Notes under the pieces: model-generated
What the model saw: the letters and a program-made list of their open reading frames with translations, nothing else
Database searches by the model: none
Told to the model about the DNA's origin: nothing
From: Cellvibrio sp. KY-YJ-3
GTDB lineage: Bacteria > Pseudomonadota > Gammaproteobacteria > Pseudomonadales > Cellvibrionaceae
DNA length: 64,000 nt
Assembly: GCF_008806955.1 (NCBI RefSeq)
Contig: NZ_CP031727.1
Span: forward strand, 3,114,001-3,178,000
Direction: 5' to 3'
Made by a program: the position numbers and the translations under genes
In this document: one piece after another, positions 11,409-30,759 of the stretch
Numbering within the stretch: the stretch's first letter is position 1
Layout: every line of letters begins with the position of its first letter

Positions 11409-11436
11409 ATAACAATATTTTTTATTTTTATAACAA
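11409..11436 (+). promoter_or_regulatory. Candidate AraC-type operator: two ATAACAATA half-sites 21 bp apart
   Basis: ATAACAA occurs at 11409-11415 and 11430-11436, in the same orientation, exactly two helical turns apart. The same arrangement lies upstream of GH29, GH74-1 and GH74-2. AraC-family proteins commonly bind two direct half-sites with this spacing. It is about 380 bp upstream of the receptor start. Confidence 0.6.
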
Positions 11437-11709
11437 TAAATAAAAAATGAATTAAATAGACAATTTTCCGCATTCTCTGTACGCGATGAATTTGGTCGGC
11501 TTTTCAACCTCTGCTGTTTATTTGTAACTTTTATTCTCACAAGTTTGGGTTGGAAGTGCAGAATCGACTGTAAAAATAGCAAATTTTGAAATTTTTATTC
11601 ATATATTTGAAATTAAAAAAAAATTAAGAAAACACGCTATTCAGGATTTATATAAAACCCGCCTAATTGTGTAGAAGGGCAAAAGAAGTTTTAAGCGCCC
11701 TTTGGTTTC

Positions 11710-11767
11710 CCAGGTATGGCAAAAACCTTCTGCAAGGTCGAGAACCTTGCTTGAGGTCTTGCCCTGG
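11710..11767 (+). promoter_or_regulatory. Nested hairpin in the leader of the TonB-dependent receptor gene
   Basis: Four consecutive helices can form: 11710-11713 with 11764-11767, 11718-11722 with 11759-11763, 11725-11728 with 11754-11757, and a 7-bp stem GCAAGGT/ACCTTGC (11732-11738 with 11744-11750, loop CGAGA). It ends 50 nt before the receptor start. No known riboswitch class is recognised. Confidence 0.5.
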
Positions 11768-11817
11768 ACTTGGAGAGCGACAAAACCATATAAACATAAA
11801 TTAGGTGGTATTTAGAG

Positions 11818-14800
11818 ATGTCGAATAACAATAGTTATAACTATGGTCGGTTCAAGAAAACACTACTTGCAGCAAGTATTATGGCGATTGGTTCTGCGGC
11901 TTATGCGGCTGACGATTCCAAAACTACGGGCGCCAAAGATGATGATATTGAGGAGATCGTTGTTTCTGGTATTCGCCGGAATATTGAATCTGCCCAGGAG
12001 TTAAAGAGAAATGCTAATACTGTAATCGATTCCATTACAGCAGATGAGTTGGGAGACTTCCCGGACAAATCGGTTGCCGAAGCATTGATGCGTGTTCCTG
12101 GTGTAATGATTGAGCGCTTTGCTACGCGAACAGATACAGGCGCATTCTCCGTGGAGCCATCTGGCGTCATCATCCGCGGTCTACCATTTGTGCGCAGTGA
12201 ATTTAATGGGCGCGATACTTTTAGTGCAGATTCAAGTCGCGGTTTGAGTTGGGGTGATGTATCCCCAGAGCTTATGGGTGGTGTGGATATTTATAAAAAC
12301 CAAACCGCGGAACTGATCGAAGGTGGTATTTCTGGTCTTGTAAATCTCAAAACCCGCCTGCCTTTTGATAGCGATAGCAGCGTAAATGTTGTCACCTTAG
12401 GCGCTAACTACAGTGACTTGTCAAAATCCAGCACCCCGGAGCTTTCAGGTATACATACCAGTCGTTTTGATACAGACGTCGGTGAATTTGGTGTGATGGC
12501 TAACTTTGCCTATTCCGATGTGGATGCTACATCGCAAAGCTCCAGAATGGCTCGCGTCAACCGCTTCCGGGATGTCTACGCTGAAGACTCGCTTTATTTT
12601 ATTCCCCAAGGTGTTTCCTTTGGCGATAGCCAATACAGCCGTGAGCGCAATGGCGCCGCCTTAGCTTTCCAGTGGCAGGATAACGAAGGCCGTTACCTCG
12701 CAACGCTACAATACAACCGCTCCCAATATGAGAATACATCTGAAGGGCGTGGTATCGGCGTGGGTTGGGCTGGTCTTGGTGGCGGCGACAGCTTGTTCCT
12801 CGAGATTAAAGAGGGTGGCACTGGTTCTGGTGCAATTATTCGACCTGCTCCGGGTACTGACGCATTTACTTTTGCTGAAGATGGTTTGTTTTCCCACGGC
12901 ACTGTTGTGCAAAACCACGGTTGGTGGGGCGCTAACAATAATGATTCAAAACTGGTTGCGGCCAATGCAAACGGTGAAGCCTTGGTTGAGACTTGCGCTA
13001 GTCTGGATTCATGGGCTGGTTGTGGTGAAGGCGCAGTTGTAACGGATTTTATTGGTGGCAACCTCAGCACCAATGCGGATGTGAGCGATTCCAAAAGTGT
13101 TACCGAAGATATTAGTTTGAATTTTAAATGGAATGTGACTGATAAATTCCGTGCAAATTTTGATGTGCAGCATGTAAATTCCGATTTGGATGAGTATCGG
13201 GTCAATACCGGTTTCAATACCTGGGCAAATCCAGAAGTTGACTTGCGTCATGACCTCAACAGGGTCGTTTTGAACGCGCCTACCAACGTTAACCTTCTGG
13301 ACGCTGGGCAGGGCATATTTGCCAATCCTAATAGTTATTATCCCACCAGTGTGCTGGAGTTTCTTGGCGATAATCACGGTGAAGAATTTGCCACAAAAGT
13401 AGATTTAATTTACGACGTAGATTCCGGTTTTGTTGAGCGTATTAAAACTGGTGTGCGATACGCTGATCGTGATCAACAAGTGAATCAGGCCGGCAACTGG
13501 CAAGCTATGTCCACCTCCTGGAATCAGAATGCAGGCTGGTTCAACATCGACAGCCCAGCACATACTGGAATTTATGACGGCGAGGAATACACTTTTAACG
13601 GATACAAAGATGCTTTTGTTGTGGATACCTGGAAGTCTAACTACGGCAGTATAAGCATTGCTGATGGTGGTAACTTTTTTGTATTCCCTAACACCAGCAC
13701 TATGCGCGATTGGAAATACACTAACAGCGCTATGACGACTGGCCAACCGGTTAATGGTTTTTATCCGATCTGTTCTAATTTGGGTGGTCGCTTAACAGAA
13801 GTAGAGGGGACTTGTTTCCGTCCGAACGAGTCACTAAACGTATCGGAGGAGACTGAAGCATTTTATGTTCAGATCGATTTTGGTGGAAATGACCTCACAC
13901 TCTTTGATCGCCCTGTAAGTGGCAACATTGGTGCTCGTTACGTTAAAACCGAAATCGCAAGTGCGGGTGGAGAGCAATTCCCTGAGTACGATCTTGCAAG
14001 CCGTCCATGTGAAGAGACTACTCCAACCGATCCAGACGCTCCAGAGACCCGTCCCCCGGTTCCATTTACGGTTACCTGTTATTTAGGCGCTGATGAGATT
14101 GCGTTTATGAACAATGGCGGTAACTTGGGAACTTCCAAAGCAACTCATCACAATGTGTTGCCGAGCTTTAACATCAAATATGATGTGACCGATAATTTTG
14201 TTACACGCTTCGCTCTTTCACGAGCCATGTCTCGACCAGATATTGGTAGCTTGAGAAATTACATTACCGTTAGTTCGAATTTACCCAGCGTGGATGACGA
14301 AACAGGATCTTTGTGGGTTAAGGACGCTAGTGGAGAAATTGTGGGTGCCAATGTCGCCTACACCGCGAGTGCTGCCAATCCCTACTTGAAACCGACTATT
14401 GCTGATCAAGCAGACATCAGTTTCGAATACTATTCAGGGCCTAACAGCATTTCTTTTGCTTTGTATAAAAAGTCATTTGAAGATTACATCCAAACAGGAA
14501 CCTATTTCCGCAAAATGACCAATAACGGCGTCACGAAAGATGTTGTAGTTACTGGTCCAATTAATGGCGATGGTGCAGAGGTTCAAGGGTTTGAAGTTCA
14601 AGGAACGCATTTGTTCCACTATTTGCCAAGTTTCTGGAGTGGCTTTGGTATTCAGGCGAACTACACCTATGTTGAAAATAAGGGCATCGAGAATACCGGT
14701 GTAAATAGTTCCTCTGAAAATGGTTCGAGCGGCTCCAGTGGTGCATCTGATCGTGTGCAAGTCGATCAGTTAGAAGGCATGTCTAAAGATGCTTATAACC

Positions 14801-15114
14801 TCGGTGTTTTCTATGAGCGTAATAAGTTTTCTGCTCGTTTATCCTATAACTGGCGCGCTGAATATCTCGTTACCGTTCAGGATTGTTGTATAGGCACACC
14901 TGTTTGGCAGGATGATTACGGCCAACTGGATGCTTCATTGCGTTATCGCATCAATGATATGTTTGAGCTGAGTTTATCCGGTAGTAACTTGACGGATCAA
15001 AAAGCAGTACTGACACAACAAATGGAAAATAGCGAAGATGGTGGAAAGCGTCTGAAATATTCCATCAATCAAAGTGATATTCGCTACACCTTGGGTCTCC
15101 GGGCGCAATTCTAG
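11818..15114 (+). CDS. TonB-dependent receptor for oligosaccharide uptake
   Basis: 1098 residues. A signal peptide (KKTLLAASIMAIGSAAYA) is followed by DDIEEIVVSGIRRN, a TonB-box-like start, and the plug domain (FPDKSVAEALMRVPGV, VIIRGLPFVRSEFNGR). The remaining ~850 residues form the 22-strand beta-barrel, ending in the aromatic residue of GLRAQF as outer-membrane proteins do. There is no STN signalling domain. It belongs to the large TonB-dependent receptor subfamily of Caulobacter, Xanthomonas and Cellvibrio often linked to glycan uptake, and is first in an operon with two halogenase-like genes and GH97. The specific ligand (xyloglucan oligosaccharides) is inferred from the neighbouring GH74 and GH29 genes. 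Confidence 0.92.
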   Translation: MSNNNSYNYGRFKKTLLAASIMAIGSAAYAADDSKTTGAKDDDIEEIVVSGIRRNIESAQELKRNANTVIDSITADELGDFPDKSVAEALMRVPGVMIERFATRTDTGAFSVEPSGVIIRGLPFVRSEFNGRDTFSADSSRGLSWGDVSPELMGGVDIYKNQTAELIEGGISGLVNLKTRLPFDSDSSVNVVTLGANYSDLSKSSTPELSGIHTSRFDTDVGEFGVMANFAYSDVDATSQSSRMARVNRFRDVYAEDSLYFIPQGVSFGDSQYSRERNGAALAFQWQDNEGRYLATLQYNRSQYENTSEGRGIGVGWAGLGGGDSLFLEIKEGGTGSGAIIRPAPGTDAFTFAEDGLFSHGTVVQNHGWWGANNNDSKLVAANANGEALVETCASLDSWAGCGEGAVVTDFIGGNLSTNADVSDSKSVTEDISLNFKWNVTDKFRANFDVQHVNSDLDEYRVNTGFNTWANPEVDLRHDLNRVVLNAPTNVNLLDAGQGIFANPNSYYPTSVLEFLGDNHGEEFATKVDLIYDVDSGFVERIKTGVRYADRDQQVNQAGNWQAMSTSWNQNAGWFNIDSPAHTGIYDGEEYTFNGYKDAFVVDTWKSNYGSISIADGGNFFVFPNTSTMRDWKYTNSAMTTGQPVNGFYPICSNLGGRLTEVEGTCFRPNESLNVSEETEAFYVQIDFGGNDLTLFDRPVSGNIGARYVKTEIASAGGEQFPEYDLASRPCEETTPTDPDAPETRPPVPFTVTCYLGADEIAFMNNGGNLGTSKATHHNVLPSFNIKYDVTDNFVTRFALSRAMSRPDIGSLRNYITVSSNLPSVDDETGSLWVKDASGEIVGANVAYTASAANPYLKPTIADQADISFEYYSGPNSISFALYKKSFEDYIQTGTYFRKMTNNGVTKDVVVTGPINGDGAEVQGFEVQGTHLFHYLPSFWSGFGIQANYTYVENKGIENTGVNSSSENGSSGSSGASDRVQVDQLEGMSKDAYNLGVFYERNKFSARLSYNWRAEYLVTVQDCCIGTPVWQDDYGQLDASLRYRINDMFELSLSGSNLTDQKAVLTQQMENSEDGGKRLKYSINQSDIRYTLGLRAQF

Positions 15115-15127
15115 GTTAGTTGTCCAT

Positions 15128-15162
15128 GGAGCTACCGTTTGTAACGGTAGCTCCAGTTTTTT
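15128..15162 (+). terminator. Intra-operon terminator between receptor and halogenase genes
   Basis: A perfect 12-bp stem (15128-15139 with 15143-15154) with a 3-nt loop is followed by AGTTTTTT. It sits 13 bp after the receptor stop and 14 bp before the next start. Partial read-through would give high receptor and lower downstream expression. Confidence 0.85.
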
Positions 15163-15176
15163 CTGGAGCACGAGCG

Positions 15177-16688
15177 ATGCAACAACCTTTTAGAATAATA
15201 ATTGTGGGCGGCGGTACGGCAGGCTGGATGACAGCGGCTGCTATTTCCTCACTTTATAAAGATCGATCACGTTTTCAAATAACGCTGGTTGAGTCGGAAG
15301 AGATTGGCAGTATTGGTGTAGGTGAGGCTACTTTGCCCTCTATAAAAAGCTTCAATGACCAGCTAGGTATTGATGAAGTTGAAATGATGAGGCGCACCCA
15401 GGCGACCTTTAAGCTCGGTATTCAATTTAATGATTGGGGCAGGTTAGGGGCTAGTTATATTCACCCATTTGGTTTGTATGGCAGCTTGAAAAACTCTTCG
15501 GATTTTTACCAGTATTGGTCTCATGTGGCTTCAAAAAAAACCATCCCCGATATATCAAAGTATTCCTTTGCTGTGCAATTGTGCGAGCGCAACCAGTTTA
15601 CATTTCCTTCCAAAGATTCGGGCCAGATTGAAAGTACTTTTTCTTATGCTTACCATTTTGATGCCGCGCTCTACGCTGCCTATTTGCGCGAGATAAGTGA
15701 ACGCGCTGGTGTATTGCGTGTGAATGGCATAGTTGAAGCAATTAACAATGACCCTGATACAGGCAACATTACTGCTGTTTTTCTTCGTGATGGAAAAACG
15801 TTGAGTGGCGACTTTTTTATCGATTGCTCGGGTTTTCGCTCACTGTTATTACATAAAAATCTACAATCCGAATTTGAAGATTGGTCTCATTGGCTCTTGT
15901 GCGACAGAGCAGTCGCTATGCAGTCTGAGCAGCCAAAAGACATTCCTCCTTACACTATGTCAACTGCAAAAGAAGCTGGCTGGCAGTGGCGAATCCCTCT
16001 ACAGCACAGAGCTGGTAATGGTTATGTATATTGTAGCAATCTAATCAGCGATGATCAGGCTCATGATTCTTTGCTTAAAGGGCTTGCTGGAAAACCCTTG
16101 ACCGATCCTAGATTTATTAAATTCAAAGCGGGACGGTATAAAAAATCCTGGCAAAAAAATTGTGTTGCTATTGGTTTATCAAGTGGATTTCTAGAGCCGC
16201 TAGAGTCAACCAGTATTTATCTAATACATATAGCGATTATTTGTTTATTGCGTGTCTTTTCCTTCCAGTCAAATAAAAACCTATCTATCTTATCCGATGA
16301 ATATAATCGGTTGATTGATAATGAGTACGAGCGGATACGGGATTTTCTTATTCTGCATTACCGTTTAAATGATCGCACTGATTCAGAATTGTGGCGGCAT
16401 TGTCAATCTATGAAAGTGCCAGACAGCCTTATGCAAAAAATGGATTTGTTCAAGCGTCGCGGTTATTCAGAAAGCTTCAAGTATGGCTTATTCAGTACGC
16501 CCAGTTGGCTCGCTGTTTTTCACGGTCAAGGACTTTTCCAGCAGGGCATTGATCCGTTTATCTCATCTATTCCAACAGAAAAGATCGAGCCGATACTCGC
16601 AGAGGTTAGCGGTATGATTGATAAAGGGCTGCAGGCTGCTTCAACTCATGAGCATTTCATCAAACAACACTGTAACGCCGCCACATGA
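15177..16688 (+). CDS. Flavin-dependent tryptophan halogenase-family protein (motifs intact)
   Basis: 503 residues from the ATG at 15177, placed after the terminator hairpin and preceded by GGAGC; a TTG start at 15120 would read through the hairpin. The FAD motif GGGTAGW is at residues 11-17, and GVGEATLPS follows at 47-55. The lysine of TFKLG falls at position 79, the same number as the catalytic Lys79 of PrnA and RebH. The GWxWxIP motif (GWQWRIP) and EPLEST (holding the PrnA Glu346 equivalent) are both present. No signal peptide is seen, so it is cytoplasmic. Family members chlorinate tryptophan with FADH2; the proteins that accompany polysaccharide TonB-dependent receptors have no established substrate to my knowledge. 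Confidence 0.88.
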   Translation: MQQPFRIIIVGGGTAGWMTAAAISSLYKDRSRFQITLVESEEIGSIGVGEATLPSIKSFNDQLGIDEVEMMRRTQATFKLGIQFNDWGRLGASYIHPFGLYGSLKNSSDFYQYWSHVASKKTIPDISKYSFAVQLCERNQFTFPSKDSGQIESTFSYAYHFDAALYAAYLREISERAGVLRVNGIVEAINNDPDTGNITAVFLRDGKTLSGDFFIDCSGFRSLLLHKNLQSEFEDWSHWLLCDRAVAMQSEQPKDIPPYTMSTAKEAGWQWRIPLQHRAGNGYVYCSNLISDDQAHDSLLKGLAGKPLTDPRFIKFKAGRYKKSWQKNCVAIGLSSGFLEPLESTSIYLIHIAIICLLRVFSFQSNKNLSILSDEYNRLIDNEYERIRDFLILHYRLNDRTDSELWRHCQSMKVPDSLMQKMDLFKRRGYSESFKYGLFSTPSWLAVFHGQGLFQQGIDPFISSIPTEKIEPILAEVSGMIDKGLQAASTHEHFIKQHCNAAT

Positions 16689-16700
16689 CGGGTAATTTTT

Positions 16701-18158
16701 ATGAACGATGGAATTAAAAAAATTGTAATCGTTGGGCGGGACTTGGATGCGTGGATAACAGCCTTTTTCCTTAAGTCTGTACTCGATAAGTCCAGAGACT
16801 CATACGAAGTTACTTTAGTGGAGCTAGGGACGCTGTTAACAGAGCATGACATTTTTGCAGTTCTCCCTAGCTACAAAATGTTACACAAAACGCTAGGCGC
16901 TAATGAAGATAAATTACGCCAAACCGCAAAAGCTCGCCCTTTTTTTGGTCAGAGATTTACGGGTTGGAACCCGGAATTGCCAGAATTTTTCCATGCCTAC
17001 GATCGACTGGGTATAAATTTTAATGGTGTAGATTTCTTTCAGTATTGGATGAAAGCTGTTAACAATGGGCTGAAACTTCCTTTGGAGGATTTTTCTCTGG
17101 GGGTTGCGGCTGCCAAGCATGGCCGCTTTGTGGCTAGCACTGGGCAGGCCGACTTCTCTCATCTAGCGTATGGCTACCACCTAAGCGCTATTGAATATGT
17201 CAATGCAATCGCCCGGGCGGCGATGGAAGTAGGGGTAAAACGAGAGAATGGAAATATCATAACGATTAATAGAAACAATGATGTGATTGATTCTTTAAGC
17301 TTGGATGACGGAACGGTTCTTAAGGCTGATTTTTTTATTGATGCATCAGGTGCGGACGCATTATTGATAAATTCGTTAACGGATAATAATTTTGAAAGTT
17401 GGGAAGATTGGTTCCTGTGTGATCGAATCATTACTGCATCCAGCGCTCCTTTATCTCCTGCTCCAGCATTTAGTCAGGTCACTGCGTTTTCAAGTGGCTG
17501 GTGTGGTCTATATCCGTTAAACAACAGAACGGCCATTCAAACACTCTATTCTTCCCGTCATACAGATTTTTCCGGTGTTGTGGCAGAAATGAAAATGCGT
17601 GTAGGTGTGAATATTTCACAGGGAGTCGAGCGACCTATTAAATGCGGCATGCTAAGCCGACCATGGATTGGGAACTGTTTAGCTGTGGGAACTGCGGCAG
17701 CAAATATGGAGCCTTTGGATGCACTGCAAGAGCACTCGTTAGTTATAAGTATGGTTATGCTCAAACAGCTATTTCCAAACAGTAACGAATATCAAAATGA
17801 AAGGGATGTTTATAACAAAAAAATGCATTCTTTTATAGAGAACTTGAGGGATTTTCAGATTGTTCATTATGCGCTTAATTCCAGAGATGAGTTGTTTTGG
17901 GAGGCCTGTAAAAACCTTGAATTACCTCATGTTTTAAAAGAAAAGATTGATATTTTTAAGTGCTGTGGTTACGCCTCGGTCCGCGAGGATGAAACATTTC
18001 AAGAGGAGAATTGGATAAGTGTTTTCAATGGTCATGGGTTAGCTCCCGAGTTTTACAGCCCTTTGGTGGATAATATGAGTGATGATGAAATGATACAAAA
18101 CTTTCAAAAAATCTTGAGGATGATTAAAGAACGAATTAATTCTTCGCCGTTAGTGTAA
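16701..18158 (+). CDS. Degenerate tryptophan halogenase-like protein (catalytic motifs lost)
   Basis: 485 residues, clearly a paralogue of the preceding gene along its full length (similar segments around KADFFIDASGADALLINS, FESWEDWFLCDR and HYALNSRDELFWEAC). Each diagnostic motif is changed: GGGTAGW is GRDLDAW (residues 12-18), the GEATLP segment is FAVLPSY, the catalytic Lys79 position is Phe81, GWxWxIP is GWCGLYP, and EPLEST is EPLDAL. The frame is intact and 12 bp behind its partner, so it is kept by selection rather than decayed. It may bind a ligand or form a heterodimer with the first protein; enzymatic halogenation seems unlikely. Confidence 0.8.
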   Translation: MNDGIKKIVIVGRDLDAWITAFFLKSVLDKSRDSYEVTLVELGTLLTEHDIFAVLPSYKMLHKTLGANEDKLRQTAKARPFFGQRFTGWNPELPEFFHAYDRLGINFNGVDFFQYWMKAVNNGLKLPLEDFSLGVAAAKHGRFVASTGQADFSHLAYGYHLSAIEYVNAIARAAMEVGVKRENGNIITINRNNDVIDSLSLDDGTVLKADFFIDASGADALLINSLTDNNFESWEDWFLCDRIITASSAPLSPAPAFSQVTAFSSGWCGLYPLNNRTAIQTLYSSRHTDFSGVVAEMKMRVGVNISQGVERPIKCGMLSRPWIGNCLAVGTAAANMEPLDALQEHSLVISMVMLKQLFPNSNEYQNERDVYNKKMHSFIENLRDFQIVHYALNSRDELFWEACKNLELPHVLKEKIDIFKCCGYASVREDETFQEENWISVFNGHGLAPEFYSPLVDNMSDDEMIQNFQKILRMIKERINSSPLV

Positions 18159-18187
18159 ACCTGAAATTTACTTTTATTTGAGAATAA

Positions 18188-20215: not shown

Positions 20216-20227
20216 CTTCTCTACCTC

Positions 20228-20542: not shown

Positions 20543-21676
20543 TTGGCAAGTAATAAGTGGTTACAATCAAAAATCTTATCTTTTTATGTTGTTCTGCTAT
20601 TGGTCAGCGTGATCGGATTCTTTATTTGTTATCAATATTCATACTCAACGTTAACAATTTTTCCGGAAAAAAACTCTCCGTATAAATGGTCATTAACCTC
20701 ATGGAATGATGAGTATTCAGTGATTTCACACGAGAATAATTCCTCGTCGTTAATCGCAAATTTCAAATTATCCAAAAAATCCCAGTGGTTTGGCGCGGGC
20801 ATTGCTATCAACTTTGACCAAAATGTTGGTCGCGTCGTAGATTTTTCAGAATTTACAAAAGCGCGAGTGTTATTAAAGTGCTCTCCATCGAATACTTTGT
20901 ATTTTGGTCTATCGATGGAGGATGAAAAAGTTACCGAGAAAGGAATCCCGCTAACCTACAGAAATGCAGGTGCGCATATAAATTGCGATAGTGAATGGAG
21001 TGAAGTTGAAATTAACCTCGACTCGCTGGAGGTTCAAGTATGGTGGTTGCATAGGTTTGGTTTTAAGGCATCTGAAAAAGCCTATGACTTGAGGAAAGTC
21101 ATTCGAATTTACCTTGAGGCAGCTTATGAGAGTCCTGTGGATATAGAATCCAATCTTTATGTTTCAGGGATATCTTTTGTCGGCAGAAAAGAGGGGATAT
21201 TACTAAATTTTACTTTAGTCATGCTTGCAATATGGGTGCTGAGTGGCGCTTGGATCATAAGATCACAATTAAAGCCCAAGCCGCTGGAACAGGAAATCTC
21301 ACCGCAGTTGCAATATGAACCACTTGATTTTAACCCGGCAAGAGAGCGTGATAAACAAGCTATTTTTGAATACATCGCGAAAAATTTTGCTAACCCGGAG
21401 ATTGATATTGAGTCTGTTACCAAGGCGGCAGGAGTAAGTCGCACCAAAGTAAATGATATTTTGAAGGCGGAATATGGAACTACTTTTACCAATCACATTA
21501 ACAAACTGAGGTTGGTTGAGGCATCAAGGTTACTGGCTGAAAAACCGGATGCACACATCACTGAAATTGCCTATTTAGTCGGTTTTAAAAATATCTCGTA
21601 TTTCAATAAGCTATTTAAAGAGCAGTTTGGTTCAACCCCTAAAGAAGTCAGGGGAAAAGCTGCGAAAGAAAATTAG
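20543..21676 (+). CDS. Membrane-spanning AraC-family transcriptional regulator
   Basis: 377 residues. The start is TTG at 20543 with a strong ribosome site (AGAGGTG, 5-6 bases away); no ATG lies nearby. Order: membrane segment ~11-30, extracytoplasmic domain ~31-215 with a carbohydrate-binding-like flavour (NNSSSLIANFKLSKKSQWFG, FSEFTKARVLLKC, LYFGLSMED), second membrane segment (LLNFTLVMLAIWVLSGAWII), a linker, and the AraC double helix-turn-helix ~270-370, ending with the signature IAYLVGFKNISYFNKLFKEQFGSTPKEVR. It would sense a periplasmic sugar signal and regulate transcription directly at the membrane. It lies between the receptor operon and the GH29/GH74 genes, which carry candidate operators. 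Confidence 0.85.
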   Translation: MASNKWLQSKILSFYVVLLLVSVIGFFICYQYSYSTLTIFPEKNSPYKWSLTSWNDEYSVISHENNSSSLIANFKLSKKSQWFGAGIAINFDQNVGRVVDFSEFTKARVLLKCSPSNTLYFGLSMEDEKVTEKGIPLTYRNAGAHINCDSEWSEVEINLDSLEVQVWWLHRFGFKASEKAYDLRKVIRIYLEAAYESPVDIESNLYVSGISFVGRKEGILLNFTLVMLAIWVLSGAWIIRSQLKPKPLEQEISPQLQYEPLDFNPARERDKQAIFEYIAKNFANPEIDIESVTKAAGVSRTKVNDILKAEYGTTFTNHINKLRLVEASRLLAEKPDAHITEIAYLVGFKNISYFNKLFKEQFGSTPKEVRGKAAKEN

Positions 21677-22020
21677 CTGCATTGTTTATATTCTGATCTC
21701 CTTATCTTTCATCGTCTGGCCTACCTCTGTAGGCCGTGACGGTTATAAACTCCCTCCATTATTTATCCAGTAATAGACGTAAGCCATCGACACAAAAAAT
21801 ATTTTGTTGATTAACGTATGTTTTGTCTTTTTTTAATAACAAAAGATCTAATAAAAATAACAAAATAAAATTTTTCAAAAAAATTCTGCTGTTTTCGTTT
21901 AAATTTTAATATTAATTGCATTAAAGTCGGCGATTGATTCGATGATTGCGTCATTCGCTGTGCAGCAGCAGATGATTCCTATTATCCGTTTGTATCGCCG
22001 TTTGTAGTTTGGGGTTTTCC
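21677..22020 (+). other. Intergenic regulatory region upstream of GH29
   Basis: 344 bp. A short hairpin GGCCTAC-CTCT-GTAGGCC (21718-21735) follows the AraC gene but has no T-run. The 21-bp operator pair lies at 21836-21863, in a very AT-rich stretch (21820-21930). No gene is seen. Confidence 0.6.
21836..21863 (+). promoter_or_regulatory. Candidate AraC-type operator upstream of GH29
   Basis: Two identical ATAACAAAA half-sites begin at 21836 and 21857, 21 bp apart in direct orientation, about 160 bp upstream of the GH29 start. This is the cleanest copy of the motif in the window. Confidence 0.65.
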
Positions 22021-23532
22021 ATGAAAAATAGATTAATAACCACCTTGGCATTAATTTCCACGGTTCTTTGTGCATCAACGAGTGTCGCTAATGACCATAA
22101 ACTTCCTTCTGCTGTGGCATTTACGCCTGACACTCTGGAGAAATATGAAACGCCGTTATGGTTTAAAGATGCCAAGCTGGGTATTTGGTCGCATTGGGGG
22201 CCTCAGGCGGTTCCTCGGATTGGAGATTGGTATGCACGCTTTATGTATGTCCCCGGCACGCCTCAGTACGACCATCATGTTAAAAATTACGGCCACCCAT
22301 CCAAGGTTGGCTACAAAGACATAATTCCGCTCTGGAAAGCCGAGAAATTTGAACCCGATGCTTTGATGAAGCTTTATAAAGAAGCTGGCGCAAAATATTT
22401 TGTCAGCATGGCGGTGCATCACGACAATTTTGATTTATGGAACTCCAAACACCACAAATGGAATTCGGTGAATATGGGTCCTAAACGGGACATAGTGGGT
22501 GACTGGAAAAAGGCGGCAAAAAAACAGGGCTTGCATTTTGGTGTGTCAGAGCACTTGGGTGCCAGCTACAGTTGGTTTGCGCCTAGCCACGGTTACGATC
22601 AATTCTGGCCTTTGAATGGTGTAGGTTATGACGGCGAGAACCCGGAGTACGCTGATTTGTACCACTCTGGTAAAGACAAGCCTTATCGCGATTCCAGAAC
22701 CTGGTATACCGATAATCCTGAATCACAAAAGAACTGGCTGTTAAGGGTTACCGATCTTATTGATCAATATAATCCGGATTTGCTCTATACCGACGGGGGA
22801 ATTCCTTTCGGTGAAGTAGGGCGCTCGCTTGTCGCCGATTATTATAATAAAAACATAAAAAAGAACGGTGGTCGCTTGGAGGCTGTCTATAACCATAAAA
22901 ATATAGGCTCGGGAGAATTTATTTTAAAAGCCGGCGTTCAGGATATAGAGCGTGGTGTTATGGACGGAATTAGTCCCTATCCATGGCAGACAGATACCTC
23001 GAATGGAGATTGGTACTACAACGATAATCATGGCTACAAGAGCAGTGCCCAAGTCATCCATATGCTCACAGATATCGTTAGTAAAAACGGAAACTTGTTG
23101 CTCAATATTGTTCAGTATCCGGATGGAAGTTTGCCGCCTGAATCGCAACTTTTACTCAAAGAAATGGCGGCTTGGATTAAGGTTAACGGTGAGGCAATTT
23201 ATGCAACCAGACCTTGGAAGATCTACGGTGAAGGGCCAACAGCTGCCGCTGCTGGGCATTTTAAAGAGGAAGATAACTATACGGCCCAAGATATTCGTTT
23301 TACCACCAAAAACAATGTGCTTTATGCAACCACTCTTGCAGAACCTTCTGGGCAAATAAAAATCCTTTCTTTGGGCACGAGCAGCAAACTTCTGGATAAG
23401 AAAATTAAGGATGTTCGCATGCTTGGGTACAATAAGAAGCTTGAGTGGCGTCAGGAGAGTGATCATTTATTGGTAATTCTGCCAGAAAAACTACCTACGC
23501 CTTTTGGATCAAGCTTAAAAATAAGCTTTTAA
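22021..23532 (+). CDS. GH29 alpha-L-fucosidase, exported
   Basis: 503 residues from the ATG at 22021 (a TTG 12 bases earlier is less likely). Signal peptide: TTLALISTVLCASTSVA. GH29 signatures follow in order: LGIWSHWGPQAVP, the substrate-binding HHDNFDLWNSKHHKWNSV, SEHLGASYSW, and NPDLLYTDGG with the nucleophile Asp258. The C-terminal ~90 residues (from about 400) form the usual beta-sandwich. It removes terminal alpha-L-fucose, for example from fucogalactoxyloglucan, probably in the periplasm. It has its own operator pair upstream and its own terminator, so it is likely monocistronic. Confidence 0.92.
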   Translation: MKNRLITTLALISTVLCASTSVANDHKLPSAVAFTPDTLEKYETPLWFKDAKLGIWSHWGPQAVPRIGDWYARFMYVPGTPQYDHHVKNYGHPSKVGYKDIIPLWKAEKFEPDALMKLYKEAGAKYFVSMAVHHDNFDLWNSKHHKWNSVNMGPKRDIVGDWKKAAKKQGLHFGVSEHLGASYSWFAPSHGYDQFWPLNGVGYDGENPEYADLYHSGKDKPYRDSRTWYTDNPESQKNWLLRVTDLIDQYNPDLLYTDGGIPFGEVGRSLVADYYNKNIKKNGGRLEAVYNHKNIGSGEFILKAGVQDIERGVMDGISPYPWQTDTSNGDWYYNDNHGYKSSAQVIHMLTDIVSKNGNLLLNIVQYPDGSLPPESQLLLKEMAAWIKVNGEAIYATRPWKIYGEGPTAAAAGHFKEEDNYTAQDIRFTTKNNVLYATTLAEPSGQIKILSLGTSSKLLDKKIKDVRMLGYNKKLEWRQESDHLLVILPEKLPTPFGSSLKISF

Positions 23533-23583
23533 AAATTTGCGTAAATCCGAATATTAACAATAACCCCTATGTTTGACTGTTTG

Positions 23584-23617
23584 GGCCTGCCGGAAATATC
23601 CGGTAGGCCTTTTTTTT
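23584..23617 (+). terminator. Terminator after GH29
   Basis: Stem GGCCTGCCGGA/TCCGGTAGGCC (one G-U pair), loop AATA, followed by eight T residues. Confidence 0.9.
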
Positions 23618-23618
23618 A

Positions 23619-23646
23619 GTAACAAGTTTTAGAAAAATTCTAATAA
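23619..23646 (+). promoter_or_regulatory. Candidate AraC-type operator upstream of GH74-1 (degenerate)
   Basis: GTAACAA (23619-23625) and CTAATAA (23640-23646) are 21 bp apart, in the same orientation as the better pairs upstream of GH29 and GH74-2. It directly follows the GH29 terminator. Confidence 0.45.
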
Positions 23647-23891
23647 TAATTTTTAGTTGTAGTTATTTTTACTTGTTTTTAATTCCGGTTGGTTTCAGTG
23701 AGGTAGCATCCTAACGTCGTTTACTGCGTAAGCGACTGGAACGATTTTCTCCCCTTAGCAGGGAAGCTGTTTTATCAGGTGTAGTTCGGATAGGTATCTA
23801 TGATTTTGCTTGCTGACTACATCTGCTTTTTCTTCTGGATGTTCTGTATTTCCAAAAACGATTTGCGTTACTGAATCCAAGGATACTAATA
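23647..23891 (+). other. Leader region of GH74-1
   Basis: 245 bp without a gene. A small stem GTCGTTTAC-TGC-GTAAGCGAC (23716-23736, one T-G pair) is present. No T-run and no recognised RNA family. Confidence 0.45.
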
Positions 23892-26351
23892 ATGAAAATG
23901 CTACAGCGACTAGTCTCTTCAATATCGATATTGGCCATCTGCACTTTTATCGCCTACAGCCACGCCGATAACTATCAGTGGGATGCGGTTTCTATGGGCG
24001 GTGGTGGCTTTGTCAATGCCGTAATTCCCAGTAAAACAGAGCAGGGCTTGTTTTACGCGCGTACCGATGTAGGTGGCGCCTATCGTTGGGATAAAACCCA
24101 ATCGCGTTGGATAGCTTTAACAGATTGGGTTTCGCAAGATCAGGTTGGCTACCTTGGTGTTGAATCCCTTGCACTTGACCCTAAGGACTCCGCGAAGCTC
24201 TATATGCTCGTGGGTATTTCCTATTTTAATGGCGGCAAGTCCGCGATATTAAAATCCAATGATTATGGAAATACTTTTCAAGTTATTGATATCTCCAACC
24301 AATTCAAGGCCCATGGAAATGGAATGGGAAGGCAAACCGGCGAAAAATTGGTTGTCGATCCTATTGATAGCAACATCCTTTATACCGGTACTCGTTGGAA
24401 TGGTTTATTTAAATCTACTGATGCGGGCATTACCTGGTCCAGGTTAAGTGGCTTGAACCTTACTACTACGCCTAATGAGAACGGGATCAGTTTTGTTGTG
24501 CTGGACAGTTCCACTGAGCAAGGTAGTGCAGCAAAAAATATATTTGTTGGTGTTTCCCGCTTCCCTTCAGTGGGTGCTAATTTTTACCGTTCCACCGATT
24601 CAGGCCAAACATTCACTGCCATCAGTGGAGGCCCCGCCGGGTTGATGCCTCAGCGTGCCATTTTTGATAAGCGCGGGGACTTGTTAATTACCTATGCTAA
24701 TGGTGCCGGCCCCCATGGGAACAATTCCCAGCCTGAACCTATGGATCAGGGGCAAGTTTGGAAATATTCTCCGGCCGCGAATACCTGGACCAATATCACA
24801 CCTGCGAATTTCTCCCGCGCTTTTGGTGGCATCACGGTAGATCCAAATGATGCTGACCGCATTATCGTTTCCAGTTGTAATACCTATATGTTTCAGTATG
24901 AAATGGATGGCCGTAGCGCTTGGGGCGATCAAATATTTTCTACTCGCGATGGTGGGAAAAATTGGACGAATTTAATTGCCAATGGGGTTTCACTCGACAC
25001 CCAAGGTGTTGATTGGGTTGCTGGCCATTCTATTCACTGGGCGGGCTCCTTGGAGTTTGATCCGTTTGATACTAAAAATGTTTATGTCACCTCGGGCAAC
25101 GGTATTTTTAAAGCGCAGGATGTTGATGCATCACCAATTGTCTGGTCGTTTTGGGTGAAAGGTATTGAGGAAACTGTGCCGCTGGATTTGGTAAGCATAA
25201 CTGGTGGCCCAGCGGTTTCGGTGATTGGTGATTACGATGGTTTTGTCCACACCGATGTAGCCCAGTATGCGCCGATTCATAAGCCTGGCATGGGAACTTC
25301 ATCCAGTATTACTTTTGCATTTAATGATCCACGCTTAATGGTTCGTGTGGGGAATTCTTTGTATTACTCCACCGATACGGCTGCAACCTGGATCCAAATA
25401 AATTTTTCAACCGGTATTCGCGGTCACGCCACACTCACTGCCGATGGCGAAACCCTGATTTATAGCCCGGGATCTACGACGGATAACAAGGAAATATTAT
25501 CGAGTTATTACACTAAAGATTGGGGGCAAACCTGGACTGCGGTTCAAGGCTTATCTATGACTCACGCCAGAGTTGTTGCAGATACTGTCAACAGTCAAAA
25601 ACTCTATGCACTCAATGGCAATAAAATGATGGTCAGCATGAATGCTGGTGTATCGTTCCAGCAAATGGGAACCCTACCATCGTCAAACGGTTCCAAAATT
25701 ATTCGGGCGGTTCCCGGCATTGAGGGCGGCGTGTGGGTAGCGCTGGGAAATAATGGATTGGCGAAGTCTACAGATTCTGGTGCTAATTTCACAATCGTTA
25801 ATGGTGTCAGTGCTGCGCAGGCAGTGGGTTTTGGAAAGGCTGCTCCGGGTAATAATTTTCCCACGATTTATATTTGGGGAACTATTAATAACGTTTCCGG
25901 CATATTCCGCTCCATTGATGGAGGAACCAGTTGGGTGAGAATTAATGATTCAACTCACCAATTTGGTGGCCCCGGCAATGGTAATTTTATACTGGGCGAT
26001 ATGAATACCTTTGGTACTGTGTACATGAGCACAGCGGGCAGGGGAATTATTTATGGAAAATTGGTAACCGATGGTTCTAATGATAATTCAAGCTCTTCAT
26101 CGGTAGACATCAGCAGCAGTTCGTCCTCCAGCGTAGCGACAACCGGTTCATCCAGCGCTGTTTCGAGCCTTGCTGAGACAAGTTCATCCAGCTCTGCAGC
26201 GAGTACTCCTCTCAGCTCTTCCAGCTCGTCATCTCATTCAAGTACCGCTCCTGCGTCTACATCAAAATCGGGCGGGGGTTCCGTTGGTATATATTTTCTA
26301 ATACTCCTTTTTACTTTTTTTGTTTCAAGAGTTTTCTTGTTAAAACAATAA
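23892..26351 (+). CDS. GH74 xyloglucanase 1 with Ser-rich linker and GlyGly-CTERM-type tail
   Basis: 819 residues. Signal peptide SISILAICTFIAYSHA, then the double seven-bladed propeller of GH74 (~26-735). The two catalytic Asp are expected at Asp59 (ARTDVGGAYRW) and Asp447 (GDYDGFVHTD). Repeated sialidase-type STDxGxTW blades are visible (KSTDAGITW, STDSGQTF, SIDGGTSW). A Ser-rich linker of ~60 residues leads to KSGGGSVGIYFLILLFTFF and a short basic end, which fits the GlyGly-CTERM sorting signal recognised by rhombosortase, so the enzyme is probably surface-attached. It would cut xyloglucan outside the cell. It probably shares a transcript with GH62, 60 bp downstream. It is much more distant from GH74-2 and GH74-3 than those are from each other. 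Confidence 0.92.
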   Translation: MKMLQRLVSSISILAICTFIAYSHADNYQWDAVSMGGGGFVNAVIPSKTEQGLFYARTDVGGAYRWDKTQSRWIALTDWVSQDQVGYLGVESLALDPKDSAKLYMLVGISYFNGGKSAILKSNDYGNTFQVIDISNQFKAHGNGMGRQTGEKLVVDPIDSNILYTGTRWNGLFKSTDAGITWSRLSGLNLTTTPNENGISFVVLDSSTEQGSAAKNIFVGVSRFPSVGANFYRSTDSGQTFTAISGGPAGLMPQRAIFDKRGDLLITYANGAGPHGNNSQPEPMDQGQVWKYSPAANTWTNITPANFSRAFGGITVDPNDADRIIVSSCNTYMFQYEMDGRSAWGDQIFSTRDGGKNWTNLIANGVSLDTQGVDWVAGHSIHWAGSLEFDPFDTKNVYVTSGNGIFKAQDVDASPIVWSFWVKGIEETVPLDLVSITGGPAVSVIGDYDGFVHTDVAQYAPIHKPGMGTSSSITFAFNDPRLMVRVGNSLYYSTDTAATWIQINFSTGIRGHATLTADGETLIYSPGSTTDNKEILSSYYTKDWGQTWTAVQGLSMTHARVVADTVNSQKLYALNGNKMMVSMNAGVSFQQMGTLPSSNGSKIIRAVPGIEGGVWVALGNNGLAKSTDSGANFTIVNGVSAAQAVGFGKAAPGNNFPTIYIWGTINNVSGIFRSIDGGTSWVRINDSTHQFGGPGNGNFILGDMNTFGTVYMSTAGRGIIYGKLVTDGSNDNSSSSSVDISSSSSSSVATTGSSSAVSSLAETSSSSSAASTPLSSSSSSSHSSTAPASTSKSGGGSVGIYFLILLFTFFVSRVFLLKQ

Positions 26352-26374
26352 TTATTGAGGTCGTAGTAAATATT

Positions 26375-26408
26375 GGCTTCTCATTTAAATCATGGGGAGC
26401 CTTATTTT
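26375..26408 (+). terminator. Weak terminator-like hairpin between GH74-1 and GH62
   Basis: GGCTTCTC pairs with GGGGAGCC (two G-T pairs) around an 11-nt loop and is followed by TTATTTT. It lies immediately before the GH62 start and may attenuate rather than stop transcription. Confidence 0.5.
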
Positions 26409-26410
26409 AT

Positions 26411-27574: not shown

Positions 27575-27923
27575 GCAACCGCACGGCCCTCTAAAAGAGT
27601 CTTTTACCGGGAGGAGTTTATAACGCAAGTCCTCCTGGTAATTAGCCCCTCACAGTCAGTTAACAAGCCTTTCAACTAACAAAACTTCTAAAAAAAATAA
27701 CAAGAATTTGTTAGTGCTATTAAATCATCCTGCTTGAGATACCTAAGCTGCCTTCCTTTTCTAAATCATATTGATTCGCCGTGGATGGCCCTAGCCGCAT
27801 TCTCGTTGTGGGCGCGCGCGCATGAATACAACTAATGCAATGGAAGGTTTATGTCGTGATAACACGCCTAAGTGTTCAGTGCACTTCAGATGTTTACAAA
27901 TAACCAATAATGAATGGTGTTTT
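27575..27923 (+). other. Regulatory region upstream of GH74-2
   Basis: 349 bp. A 10-bp stem (27606-27615 with 27630-27639) follows GH62 but lacks a T-run. The operator pair is at 27676-27703. An upstream in-frame extension of GH74-2 to 27822 is open but lacks a ribosome site and would spoil the lipoprotein signal. Confidence 0.6.
27676..27703 (+). promoter_or_regulatory. Candidate AraC-type operator upstream of GH74-2
   Basis: CTAACAA (27676-27682) and ATAACAA (27697-27703) are 21 bp apart in direct orientation, about 220 bp before the start. A further TTAACAA lies at 27660. Confidence 0.6.
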
Positions 27924-30404
27924 ATGATTCAAACAAAATTAAGCCTGTATTTGTGCCTGGCCATGTCAGGTGGAATGCTGATTGGATGTGGTGGCGGTTC
28001 GTCAGGCTCTTCCCAAACCAGTGCCCCTTCTGTATCGAGTTCATCCGTGTCCAGCTTGCCTGAATCCAGTTCAGCTGTTTCCAGTTCGTCTGTATCCAGT
28101 AGTTCAGCGGTGGTGTCCTCTGCAAGCTCAAGCAGCTTAATGACCGCCTCAAGTGAGAGCAGCGCTTCGAGCCTTTCAAGCAGTGCGTCAAGCTCCGAGG
28201 ATGCCGGATGGACCAACGTGAAATACGGTGGTGGTGGTTATGTTCCCGGTTTGGTATTTCATCCAACCACGCCTGACCTTCTTTATGCACGTACCGATAT
28301 TGGCGGTTCCTATCGTTGGGATGCAGCGGCAGCCATTTGGGCACCGCTGACCGACGGTTTTGGGATAAGGGATAGTTCCCATCAGGGCGCAGAGAGTATT
28401 GCGCTGGATCCAACTGATGACAGACGTGTGTACATGACCACGGGTGTGACTGTAAGCCTGTCTGATCTTGGGCGTTTGTATATTTCTACGGATCGCGGCG
28501 ATAACTGGCAGCGGGTAGATCTGCCATTTCCTGTGGGATCTAATAACAGGGGCCGGGCAATTGGCGAGCGCATGATGGTTGACCCTAATAACCCAGCCAT
28601 TCTGTTCTACGGTTCTCGCACCGCCGGTTTGTGGAAGAGTTCTGATCGTGGCCAAAACTGGCAGCAAGTGCAGTCTTTAGCCTCGCTCCAGATGAACCAG
28701 TCCCAGATTGACAACAATTCAGGCGGCACCCCAATTGGTGTGCAACAAGTTATTTTTGATACGGCCACTAGCGGAAGCGGTAGTGCGACCCAAACCATTT
28801 ATACCTCCGTCGCTCCGGATTATGTCGCCCTGGCTGGCTTGAGCCACAGTGTGTACAAATCAACCGACGGCGGCGCAACCTGGACTGGTGTAAACACTCC
28901 GGTGCAGGGTTACCACATTCCCCATTGGGTGCGCGCCAAAGATGGGATGATGTACGTGGTCTTTACCAAAACTACCGGCCCAGGTGCAGAAGGGCCTGCG
29001 ACGCTTTACAAATTTGATGGTACTAACTGGACCCCGCTCAAAAGCTATGAAAAAACCGAATGGACCAGCTTTGGTATAGGCGGTGTGGCAGTTTCTGGTA
29101 GTGGTTCATCCACTCGAATCGTGCTGGGTATTACCAATTCCTGGGGTGATTGGGAAGGTAAGCCAACCGTACAAATCTCCGATGACGCGGGCCTGAATTG
29201 GCGCGAAATTGGCTCAATGACGCCGCGCATTCCTGCGACTGGTTCATTTACCGGCTGGCTAGACGATATAGAGATTAACCCGGGTAACCCCGAACACGTT
29301 CTGGTGGTTCATGGAGGTGGTGTATGGGAAACCAAAAATGCCTCTGCAACCAAACCTACCTGGAGTGAAATGGTCAATGGCATTGAAGAGACGGCCACTC
29401 TATCACTCATGGCCCCACCTTCAGGTGCTTCCTATAGTTTGTTGAACAGCTCCGGGGATATAGGTGTACATGTTCATACCGATTTGTCGACCAAGCCTAC
29501 TCATAGTACAGGTCACGTTTTTGCTAACGGTATCGCTACTGATATGGCGTGGGATACGCCTTCCTACATTGCGACAATCGGCAGTGCCCACTGGGGTGGC
29601 GAAAACAAAGGGGCACTTTATTCCACTGATTCGGGTGCGACCTGGACCGCCTTTCCATCGCTTCATCCGAAAGGGCTGACTAATCAAGCCGATTTTTCCA
29701 GCTTGGCCGTCTTGAAAGCCAACCATGTGATCTGGGCACCCAATAATTCAGTTCCTGCTTATACAACTAACAACGGTGCAAGTTGGACAAATTCAAACTT
29801 GCCGGCCTTGCCGGATGGTTGGGGGCGCAGCTATCGCCTTGCGGCTGATCGCAAAAATTCAAACAAGGTCTATGCCTATGATTCCGGTGGCGGTTGGTGG
29901 GGGCCTACACCCAAGTTCTTCACTTCAACCGATGGTGGTAGCAAGTTTACTGTTAGCAGTCAGTTCACCAGCCTCAATGCTCGCCCCGAGTTTTTTGGTA
30001 CGGCTTCCATGGCGGTCAATCCATATGTTGAAGGTGATGTGTGGTTGGTGGATGGGCACAGTATTTATCACTCGCTCGACTCGGGTGTTACCTGGACCAA
30101 ACTCAACGTTGCAGCCTCCATCTGGGGTTCCAATACCAATTCACCGGAGGTGTTTGGCGCAACCTCAATCGCACTGGGTAAAGCACCGGCTGCTTCTGCT
30201 TACTCGGCATGGATTTATCTAGTGGGTGTGATTGATGGCGTCTGGGGGCTGCATCGTTCCGAGGATGGAGGCAACACTTGGACACGTATCAACGACGACA
30301 AGCACCAGTATGCCGGTATGGGGAACCTGGCGGCGGATCACAATGTGGTTGGTCGTGTGTTTTTCAGCGGTAATGGCCGCGGCATCTTTTCACTAACTAA
30401 ATAA
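27924..30404 (+). CDS. GH74 xyloglucanase 2, lipoprotein
   Basis: 826 residues from the ATG at 27924, which yields a lipobox (GGMLIGC followed by Gly). A Ser-rich linker runs to about residue 93, then the GH74 propellers fill the rest. Catalytic Asp candidates lie in ARTDIGGSYRW and in SSGDIGVHVHTD. Blade motifs STDRGDNW, SSDRGQNW, STDGGATW and SEDGGNTW are clear. The catalytic part is nearly the same as that of the next gene. It is expected on the outer membrane, cutting xyloglucan at the surface. Own operator pair upstream and terminator downstream suggest a single-gene transcript. Confidence 0.93.
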   Translation: MIQTKLSLYLCLAMSGGMLIGCGGGSSGSSQTSAPSVSSSSVSSLPESSSAVSSSSVSSSSAVVSSASSSSLMTASSESSASSLSSSASSSEDAGWTNVKYGGGGYVPGLVFHPTTPDLLYARTDIGGSYRWDAAAAIWAPLTDGFGIRDSSHQGAESIALDPTDDRRVYMTTGVTVSLSDLGRLYISTDRGDNWQRVDLPFPVGSNNRGRAIGERMMVDPNNPAILFYGSRTAGLWKSSDRGQNWQQVQSLASLQMNQSQIDNNSGGTPIGVQQVIFDTATSGSGSATQTIYTSVAPDYVALAGLSHSVYKSTDGGATWTGVNTPVQGYHIPHWVRAKDGMMYVVFTKTTGPGAEGPATLYKFDGTNWTPLKSYEKTEWTSFGIGGVAVSGSGSSTRIVLGITNSWGDWEGKPTVQISDDAGLNWREIGSMTPRIPATGSFTGWLDDIEINPGNPEHVLVVHGGGVWETKNASATKPTWSEMVNGIEETATLSLMAPPSGASYSLLNSSGDIGVHVHTDLSTKPTHSTGHVFANGIATDMAWDTPSYIATIGSAHWGGENKGALYSTDSGATWTAFPSLHPKGLTNQADFSSLAVLKANHVIWAPNNSVPAYTTNNGASWTNSNLPALPDGWGRSYRLAADRKNSNKVYAYDSGGGWWGPTPKFFTSTDGGSKFTVSSQFTSLNARPEFFGTASMAVNPYVEGDVWLVDGHSIYHSLDSGVTWTKLNVAASIWGSNTNSPEVFGATSIALGKAPAASAYSAWIYLVGVIDGVWGLHRSEDGGNTWTRINDDKHQYAGMGNLAADHNVVGRVFFSGNGRGIFSLTK

Positions 30405-30409
30405 ATGGT

Positions 30410-30457
30410 CCCTACCTGTGTTCACTTTTGTGGTGGACACAGGTAGGGATTTTTATT
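30410..30457 (+). terminator. Terminator after GH74-2
   Basis: Stem CCCTACCTGTGT/ACACAGGTAGGG with a partly paired loop, then ATTTTTATT. It is homologous in layout to the terminator after GH74-3, including the shared AAATAAATGGT before it. Confidence 0.88.
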
Positions 30458-30759
30458 AGTACATCTTGTTTTTGTAAAAAAGATTTAACTATTTTTCCCT
30501 TCATAAACTAAGAAAAAATTAAATTTTTATTGCTATGAAAAAATGTTGGTACTTATTTTCTATTTATTGCTAATGAATAGGCGAAATTCCGGGTTAACTT
30601 CAGAATGCCTGCATCTATTTCTAATAAAGACATCAGGCGTATCACCATGAGCCCTGGGAAACGCGGTCGGCGTGAATAAGAGTTTTTGCAGAAAAATAAC
30701 AATAACTGTACCTCTCCAACTCATGGATATTAATCCCACTACACCTTTTCGGAGGCTAC
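30458..30759 (+). other. Regulatory region upstream of GH74-3
   Basis: 302 bp, AT-rich in its first half. Contains the weaker half-site pair at 30676-30702. No gene seen. Unlike the catalytic domain and terminator, this region shows no obvious similarity to the GH74-2 upstream region apart from the half-sites. Confidence 0.5.
30676..30702 (+). promoter_or_regulatory. Possible AraC-type operator upstream of GH74-3 (weak)
   Basis: ATAACAA at 30696-30702 with ATAAGAG at 30676-30682; spacing is 20 rather than 21 bp. It lies only 58 bp before the start. Confidence 0.3.

Follow-up and report, generated by a model that had tools for sequence, protein, structure and literature searches.

Three transcription units of a putative hemicellulose utilization locus of the soil bacterium Cellvibrio sp. 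KY-YJ-3 are preceded by two directly repeated TAACAA half-sites exactly 21 bp apart, and a fourth unit by a pair with a single mismatch (Table 1). We found them in a stretch of 64,000 nucleotides (NZ_CP031727.1, positions 3,114,001 to 3,178,000; hereafter the window). Judged from sequence, these paired sites are very probably operators of the membrane-bound AraC-family regulator encoded at 20543-21676 in the same locus, which would sense hemicellulose and activate the surrounding genes: those for a TonB-dependent receptor and its operon, a glycoside hydrolase (GH) of family 29, and the propeller proteins here called GH74-1 and GH74-2.

An earlier note on this DNA had described exact pairs upstream of the receptor operon, GH29 and GH74-2, a degenerate pair upstream of GH74-1, and a common orientation relative to the genes. 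All of this is borne out: the three pairs read TAACAA-N15-TAACAA, the GH74-1 pair ends in TAATAA, and all four aim at the downstream gene. The spacing corresponds to two helical turns. The weaker pair that the note had placed at 30676/30696 upstream of GH74-3 was dropped: its left half reads ATAAGAG against ATAACAA on the right, and the TAACAA of the right half is TAATCA in the relative described below. A minus-strand pair at 30546-30572, with two mismatches and reversed orientation, may take its place as a fifth operator; it is the fifth-best pair of the window when scanned with a matrix built from the sites of the window and of the relative's contig C148.

In the model that we propose, the TonB receptor would import hemicellulose oligosaccharides, most likely derived from xyloglucan, and a periplasmic domain resembling carbohydrate-binding module (CBM) family 11 would sense them. 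The signal would pass the membrane via the second transmembrane helix (TM2), and two cytoplasmic AraC domains would occupy the two direct TAACAA half-sites on one face of the DNA. We infer from this arrangement activation of the receptor operon, GH29, GH74-1, GH74-2 and perhaps GH74-3, with GH62 being activated along with GH74-1 if the two are co-transcribed.

The unusual feature of the sites is their clustering before the genes of one locus. The exact motif TAACAA-N15-TAACAA occurs four times in the genome (4,489,528 bases in one contig); three of these copies lie in the window, and the fourth is antisense within an open reading frame (ORF) of 721 amino acids. Within the window, the combination of TAACAA and a 21-bp spacing is common to three of the 23 upstream regions (5,571 bp). 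We compared this with 400 dinucleotide shuffles, in which any 6-mer with at least three different letters and any spacing from 8 to 45 was allowed. The best shared pair was found in one region in 392 shuffles, in two regions in eight and never in three, in line with the claim of the earlier note that the exact spacing is hard to explain by chance. Clustering produced by scanning many words and spacings is therefore extremely unlikely. TAACAA pairs as such are not rare, with 52 in the genome over spacers N5-N35 (six at N9, five at N6 and four at N15), but shuffles free to choose word and spacing never reached three regions, and a matching, previously unseen site turned up in the relative.

Conservation of the paired sites in a second Cellvibrio genome

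We searched 21 genomes of the genus for the regulator. Proteins related to its AraC domain are present in all of them, but a close homologue (58% identity) was found only in G010, a Cellvibrio metagenome-assembled genome (MAG) with 85% completeness and 6% contamination; among the matches listed, the next best is a paralogue in the own genome with 41%. The G010 contig C148 (analysed as stretch L061) carries, in this order, the last part of a GH74-type gene, an ORF with no Pfam match, the AraC gene, GH29, GH5, a GH74-1 homologue (79% identity), two GH62 genes and the first 79 codons of a last gene. The first 20 residues of this last gene match GH74-2 from residue 35 onward at 65%, and based on this match and the similarity of the upstream DNA, we take it to be GH74-2. 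It is preceded by an exact pair at L061 13417, followed by the same TGnTATTAAAT as in the window. Identity over the operator is 0.74 (rank 17 of 175 windows), and the best windows begin at the proximal half-site.

Since C148 contains no receptor gene, we looked for it elsewhere in G010 and obtained two nearly equal candidates, on contigs C243 (51%) and C250 (50%). The C243 receptor is followed by a tryptophan-halogenase-like gene and, further along, by a GH74 fragment with 69% identity to GH74-1; because of these neighbors we regard it as the counterpart. A paired site before the receptor operon had been predicted for the relative beforehand and was then found: TGACAATATTTTTTATTTTTATAACAC lies 387-413 bp upstream of the receptor start and agrees with the window in 25 of 27 bases. 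It is the best conserved of 464 windows of 27 bp, whereas the DNA just upstream aligns poorly. The possible GH74-3 operator at 30546-30572 also has a counterpart, on the minus strand of C141 at 39100-39126 (L225 19100-19126), with an identity of 0.78 for the aligned block (rank 3 of 334). The C141 pair is located between divergent genes, one encoding a GH74 protein with a GH74-2-like start and the other an ORF similar to GH74-3 over residues 17-145 (68%).

We built a matrix from the eight half-sites of the window alone and scanned for pairs at spacing 21. In 86,848 bases of G010, six pairs score 21 or higher, with a maximum of 31.7. In contrast, no pair reaches 21 in 23 other stretches of the genus including the own genome (445,409 bases, taking in 20 kb around each of three own-genome paralogues), where the maximum is 18.4. 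The high-scoring places in G010 are the C243 receptor, GH74-2, GH74-1, a site near the C243 GH74 fragment, and C141 39100-39126.

The regulator, its family and the proposed family operator

In agreement with the earlier note, which had seen a membrane-spanning AraC protein in the middle of the locus, Pfam identifies the DNA-binding domain of the regulator, and two long hydrophobic helices are predicted to flank the sensor part, both from the sequence and in the structural model. This AlphaFold2 model, based on 60 family members, reached a mean predicted local distance difference test score of 89.2 and a predicted TM-score of 0.60; its domains are listed in Table 1. The second membrane helix is followed by a disordered linker and the C-terminal domain with its two helix-turn-helix (HTH) motifs. 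HTH_18 and HTH_AraC are found in all 60 aligned members, and profiles match AraC-type domains of solved structures, best 6swi (1.5e-16). This domain places the protein in the AraC/XylS family, whose typical geometry of direct half-sites about two turns apart is seen in the window as well. The best NCBIfam matches, RhaS (5.8e-15) and AraC (5e-12), both stay far below the family cut-offs. No kinase or receiver domain is among the Pfam matches of the regulator, which consists only of sensor, membrane helix, linker and HTH domain.

The periplasmic domain is predicted to be CBM11-like. With the predicted model as query, the best Foldseek match is CBM11 of Clostridium thermocellum (6r31_A; E 2.3e-9, TMt 0.76, 14% identity), followed by a complex I assembly factor and CBM30, and then by AraC domains among CBMs; CBM4 is also among the matches. 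Neither Pfam nor NCBIfam provides a name for the sensor domain; CBM_11 is not among the Pfam families listed, and CIA30 matches only one of the 60 members (E 0.17). Four residues of the sensor part (C112, C147, W166 and W167) are invariant across all 60 members, and together with the adjoining hemicellulase genes they hint at beta-glucan or related oligosaccharides as the ligand.

To this regulator belongs a larger family, which we collected from the genus genomes and from a wider search (best 80 of 143 kept) with members from Marinimicrobium, Glaciecola, Aestuariibacter, Massilia, Duganella, Pseudoduganella, Rugamonas, Telluria and others. We merged 145 tblastn segments, filtered them by length and retained 100 distinct proteins. 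An expectation-maximization (EM) motif search that assumed no spacing found the element AAAAAAACTTCAACTTTTTGCAnTTTGATAGAAATTTT...AAGCGTTAcC behind the regulator gene in 49 of the 100 cases. The stretch 21 bp upstream of this element matches its core at an identity of 0.565 (15 core columns, 13 of which fall outside the EM model in the upstream stretch), compared with 0.204-0.293 at offsets of 14-20 and 22-24. The distal half-sites include ACTTCAAC, CTTGCACT, CTAACACT, ACTAACAAT and TTAACAAT, and in view of this range we regard the TAACAA of the window as one form of the family half-site class. One Glaciecola member, not called by the EM model, combines TTCAAC and TAACAA 21 bp apart.

The 21-bp recurrence is also visible without any motif model. 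Within 200 bp behind the regulator gene, exact 7-mer repeats at 21 bp occur in 17 of 100 cases, compared with 3.1% of 902 other ORFs from the same loci, and at most six times at any other spacing; for 6-mers at 21 bp, the values are 26% and 10.5%, respectively. In a separate count, an exact 7-mer repeat at this spacing was present in 13 of 162 regions from Cellvibrio and in 22 of 311 other regions; most of these 22 are GC-rich or coding-like, do not represent the element and were discounted. One particular form, ACTTCAA-N14-ACTTCAA, occurs 13 times in the 21 genomes (six times for the reversed control). Ten of these pairs follow a family gene at a distance of no more than about 150 bp, one such gene being the own-genome paralogue 1796796, and the remaining three adjoin no family gene among the matches listed.

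Differences between operators follow the DNA-binding domain more closely than the sensor. In the 49 members with a called element, the partial correlation between operator distance and HTH distance, with the sensor distance removed, is 0.376 (reached in 0 of 2000 permutations), and that between operator distance and sensor distance, with the HTH distance removed, is 0.108 (36 of 2000). Taken together, the pairs in G010, the matrix built from the window alone, the family repeats and the operator-HTH distance support well the proposal of the earlier note that the sites are AraC-type operators to which the regulator would bind.

A number of observations weigh against this interpretation. The genome-wide scan suggested by the earlier note revealed no enrichment: the pair with one mismatch allowed occurs 62 times in the own genome (96 for the reversed control), and the exact pair 53 times in the 21 genus genomes (99 for the reversed control). 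Our evidence therefore lies in the clustering at one locus and its conservation rather than in frequency over the genome. The TAACAA form is seen conserved in one relative, which is a MAG, and unevenly so. The conservation upstream of orthologous genes that the earlier note asked for is seen at the receptor operon and GH74-2. Upstream of GH29, the relative retains the distal half-site (4375) but has lost the proximal one; the GH74-1 homologue has a weaker pair, TAACAA-N15-TACGAA at 7952 with two mismatches, and its operator identity of 0.70 (rank 68 of 295) is no better than that of the surroundings. Upstream of the C250 receptor, no such pair is found, the best matrix score being 11.0. The six high-scoring pairs of G010 represent five places, one of them scored on both strands, and the pair at L222 1485 points away from the nearby start of a GH74-type gene on C243. 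At other spacings, G010 yields between zero and five high pairs, with five at spacing 15 (maximum 24.5) and a maximum score of 27.0 at spacing 27. With respect to the family, the EM model called no element for 51 of the 100 members, among them the regulator of the window and its homologue with 58% identity. Moreover, 21 is a multiple of three, and coding DNA raises the number of 21-bp repeats, as seen in the 6-mer control. Operator and HTH distances also reflect a common phylogeny; the partial test lessens this effect without eliminating it. Finally, the operator role is argued from DNA sequence.

Could AT-rich promoter DNA, such as UP elements or -35 and -10 regions, share ATAACAA words by accident, without any specific regulator? 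The upstream regions are indeed AT-rich, the bare word pair lacks genome-wide enrichment, and the TGnTATTAAAT behind the GH74-2 pair is conserved. Nevertheless, we consider this explanation very unlikely, since dinucleotide shuffles of the same upstream regions never gave a pair shared by three regions, 25 of 27 bases are kept before the receptor operon next to poorly aligning DNA, and the 21-bp recurrence beside regulator genes is family-wide.

A different regulator could also bind the sites, either a paralogue from the own genome (1796796, 1886979 or 3863388) or an unlinked activator, with the AraC protein of the locus being incidental. At least three full-length paralogues exist in the own genome, and the half-site class is common to the whole family. 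In addition, the leader of the receptor operon carries a second, different 21-bp direct repeat (11585-11613), located closer to the receptor gene than the TAACAA pair and perhaps representing the site of a paralogous regulator. Its block is well conserved in the relative, where the first copy of TTTGAAAT is kept and the second reads ATTAAAAT. Still, we judge this alternative unlikely: the 445 kb that include the surroundings of all three paralogues contain no pair scoring above 18.4 with the window matrix, and strong pairs are seen in the single congener found to have a close homologue of the locus AraC. Moreover, paralogue 1796796 has its own, different pair directly behind it, and different elements were also called behind the other two.

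Going beyond the window, we lean towards a broader view in which the locus AraC belongs to a widespread family of kinase-free membrane-bound hemicellulose sensors. Its members, found in Cellvibrio and from Alteromonadales to Massilia and Duganella, would combine a CBM11-like domain, two membrane helices and an AraC domain, and each would read a 21-bp operator beside its own gene. The half-sites would form a common class with a T-x-x-x-A core, ranging from TTCAAC to TAACA. The window member would drive at least four and perhaps five promoters and could represent the missing xyloglucan sensor type of Cellvibrio. At 12 family loci scanned among 14 listed (reading past an ORF of 164 amino acids at L082), the first downstream gene encodes GH5 in six cases, GH43 in two, GH10 in one, a XylR-type regulator in two and a sulfatase-type protein in one.

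Relation to known sensory systems

To our knowledge, hemicellulose sensing in saprophytic Proteobacteria such as Cellvibrio is largely an open field. Cytoplasmic activators such as AraC and RhaS bind direct half-sites about two turns (21 bp) apart before their promoters (araI, rhaI), and the regulator described here resembles them in its two HTH motifs and in the paired direct half-sites proposed for it. The ligand-binding part of AraC and RhaS is a cytoplasmic cupin, whereas here the presumed ligand-binding part is predicted to be a beta-sandwich in the periplasm, flanked by two membrane helices. ToxR and CadC, membrane-spanning one-component regulators, carry a winged helix at the N-terminus and a single membrane helix. 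By its predicted topology, our regulator likewise combines a periplasmic sensor and a cytoplasmic DNA-binding domain in one protein without a phosphorelay, but it has its AraC domain at the C-terminus and a second membrane helix. Genome G002, which we consider to be that of C. japonicus, showed no clear pair upstream of the receptor gene or the GH95-type gene; a weak AATAACG/AATAATG repeat with 21-bp spacing before the latter scores -0.2 with the window matrix.

A close parallel is provided by the hybrid two-component systems (HTCS) of Bacteroides, for which one study describes predicted direct-repeat motifs whose tandem sites are on average 21 bp apart (PMC3878776). The similarities comprise a periplasmic glycan sensor, an AraC-type DNA-binding domain, a gene located within a glycan locus, and 21-bp direct repeats, here in the window and in the family (PMC3878776). 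Unlike our regulator, with HTH_18 and HTH_AraC only, HTCS possess a histidine kinase and a receiver, and their COG3292 sensor domain contrasts with the predicted CBM11-like sensor of a family found in Proteobacteria (PMC3878776). The same 21-bp layout in HTCS and in a different sensor architecture points to the AraC domain, rather than the signalling upstream of it, as the part that sets the geometry.

Within the same genus, the xyloglucan locus of C. japonicus also combines a TonB receptor with an alpha-L-fucosidase for fucogalacto-xyloglucan; according to a 2014 report, it appears to lack a sensor or regulator, and xyloglucan-sensing proteins were unknown at that time (PMC4285296). Our regulator is a candidate for the sensor type described there as unknown (PMC4285296), and the sensor family and its operator appear to be new as well. 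In the openly licensed literature, we found nothing on a kinase-free CBM-like membrane sensor family or its operator. The candidate sensor and its operators can be tested together, with defined bases as targets for mutation, and the family operator allows the regulons of many uncharacterized hemicellulose loci to be predicted. If our view is correct, a sensor-operator code could be read from genomes, and the question arises how a membrane-held AraC pair reaches and activates several scattered promoters.

Genes of the locus and additional features

The features of the locus are compiled in Table 1. The label GH74 for the three propeller genes is that of the earlier note; Pfam itself assigns them to the Sortilin-type family PF15902.

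Table 1. Paired sites, genes and regulator domains of the Cellvibrio sp. KY-YJ-3 locus (window coordinates unless residues are given)
Feature	Position	Strand	Remarks
Candidate operator, TonB-receptor operon	11410..11436	+	TAACAA-N15-TAACAA, exact; half-sites 11410/11431
Second 21-bp direct repeat, receptor-operon leader	11585..11613	+	TTTGAAAT at 11585 and 11606
TonB-dependent receptor	11818..15114	+	Pfam
AraC-family membrane regulator	20543..21676	+	Pfam HTH_18 3.4e-21, HTH_AraC 8.6e-11; TTG start assumed
Regulator, TM1	residues ~2-32		Predicted; numbering of the 376-residue model, first residue missing
Regulator, periplasmic beta-sandwich	residues 33-214		Predicted
Regulator, TM2	residues 216-242		Predicted; disordered linker follows
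Regulator, AraC HTH domain	residues ~288-375		Pfam and model
Candidate operator, GH29	21837..21863	+	TAACAA-N15-TAACAA, exact; half-sites 21837/21858
GH29 alpha-L-fucosidase	22009..23532	+	Pfam PF01120 1.7e-88
Candidate operator, GH74-1	23620..23646	+	TAACAA-N15-TAATAA, one mismatch; half-sites 23620/23641
GH74-1	23892..26351	+	Pfam PF15902 Sortilin-type propeller
GH62	starts 26411	+	Pfam PF03664; behind GH74-1
Candidate operator, GH74-2	27677..27703	+	TAACAA-N15-TAACAA, exact; half-sites 27677/27698; TGnTATTAAAT behind
GH74-2	27822..30404	+	Pfam PF15902
Possible operator, GH74-3	30546..30572	-	TAGCAA-N15-TACCAA, two mismatches; orientation reversed
GH74-3	30760..33645	+	Pfam PF15902

For GH74-2, the true start is probably 27924 rather than 27822: in the N-terminal comparison mentioned above (20 residues, 65%), the G010 protein begins at the place matching 27924 with a lipoprotein-like signal. 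The GH29 gene of the relative (L061 4501-5987) is split across two overlapping frames, and this split and the lost half-site before the gene are due either to genuine decay or to faulty assembly of the MAG.

Closely behind the TonB receptor follow two tryptophan-halogenase-like flavoproteins and then GH97 (Pfam), and we infer that these four genes form one transcript. The halogenase-like genes (15120-18158), whose role in glycan use is not obvious, separate the receptor from GH97; a gene of the same kind (L222 4865-6370) comes after the receptor in the relative.

Between the GH74-1 operator and the start of the gene, a hairpin followed by a T-run is present in both genomes (23776-23831; L061 ~8106-8160), a possible attenuator. 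By eye, bases in both arms of the stem differ between the two sequences; the z-score of the fold is only -1.07 in the window and -3.68 in the relative. DNA matching this leader was found in two of the 21 genus genomes, the own genome being one. At gathering cut-offs, Rfam gave zero matches across the window.

Behind the proximal half-site of the family operator, TTGATAG, AGCGTTACC and TAnnCT recur at ~17-75 bp and near-fixed distances in Cellvibrio and Massilia. TAnnCT, found by eye ~64 bp behind the half-site in many family members, may be a -10 element; TTGATAG and AGCGTTACC are unexplained. As the promoter regions of the window disagree on both TGnTATTAAAT and TAnnCT, we do not claim a promoter here. 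Near the locus, a gene at 38491-41886 encodes a protein of 1131 amino acids with DUF7133, HEAT repeats and cytochrome c, odd company for a hemicellulose region.

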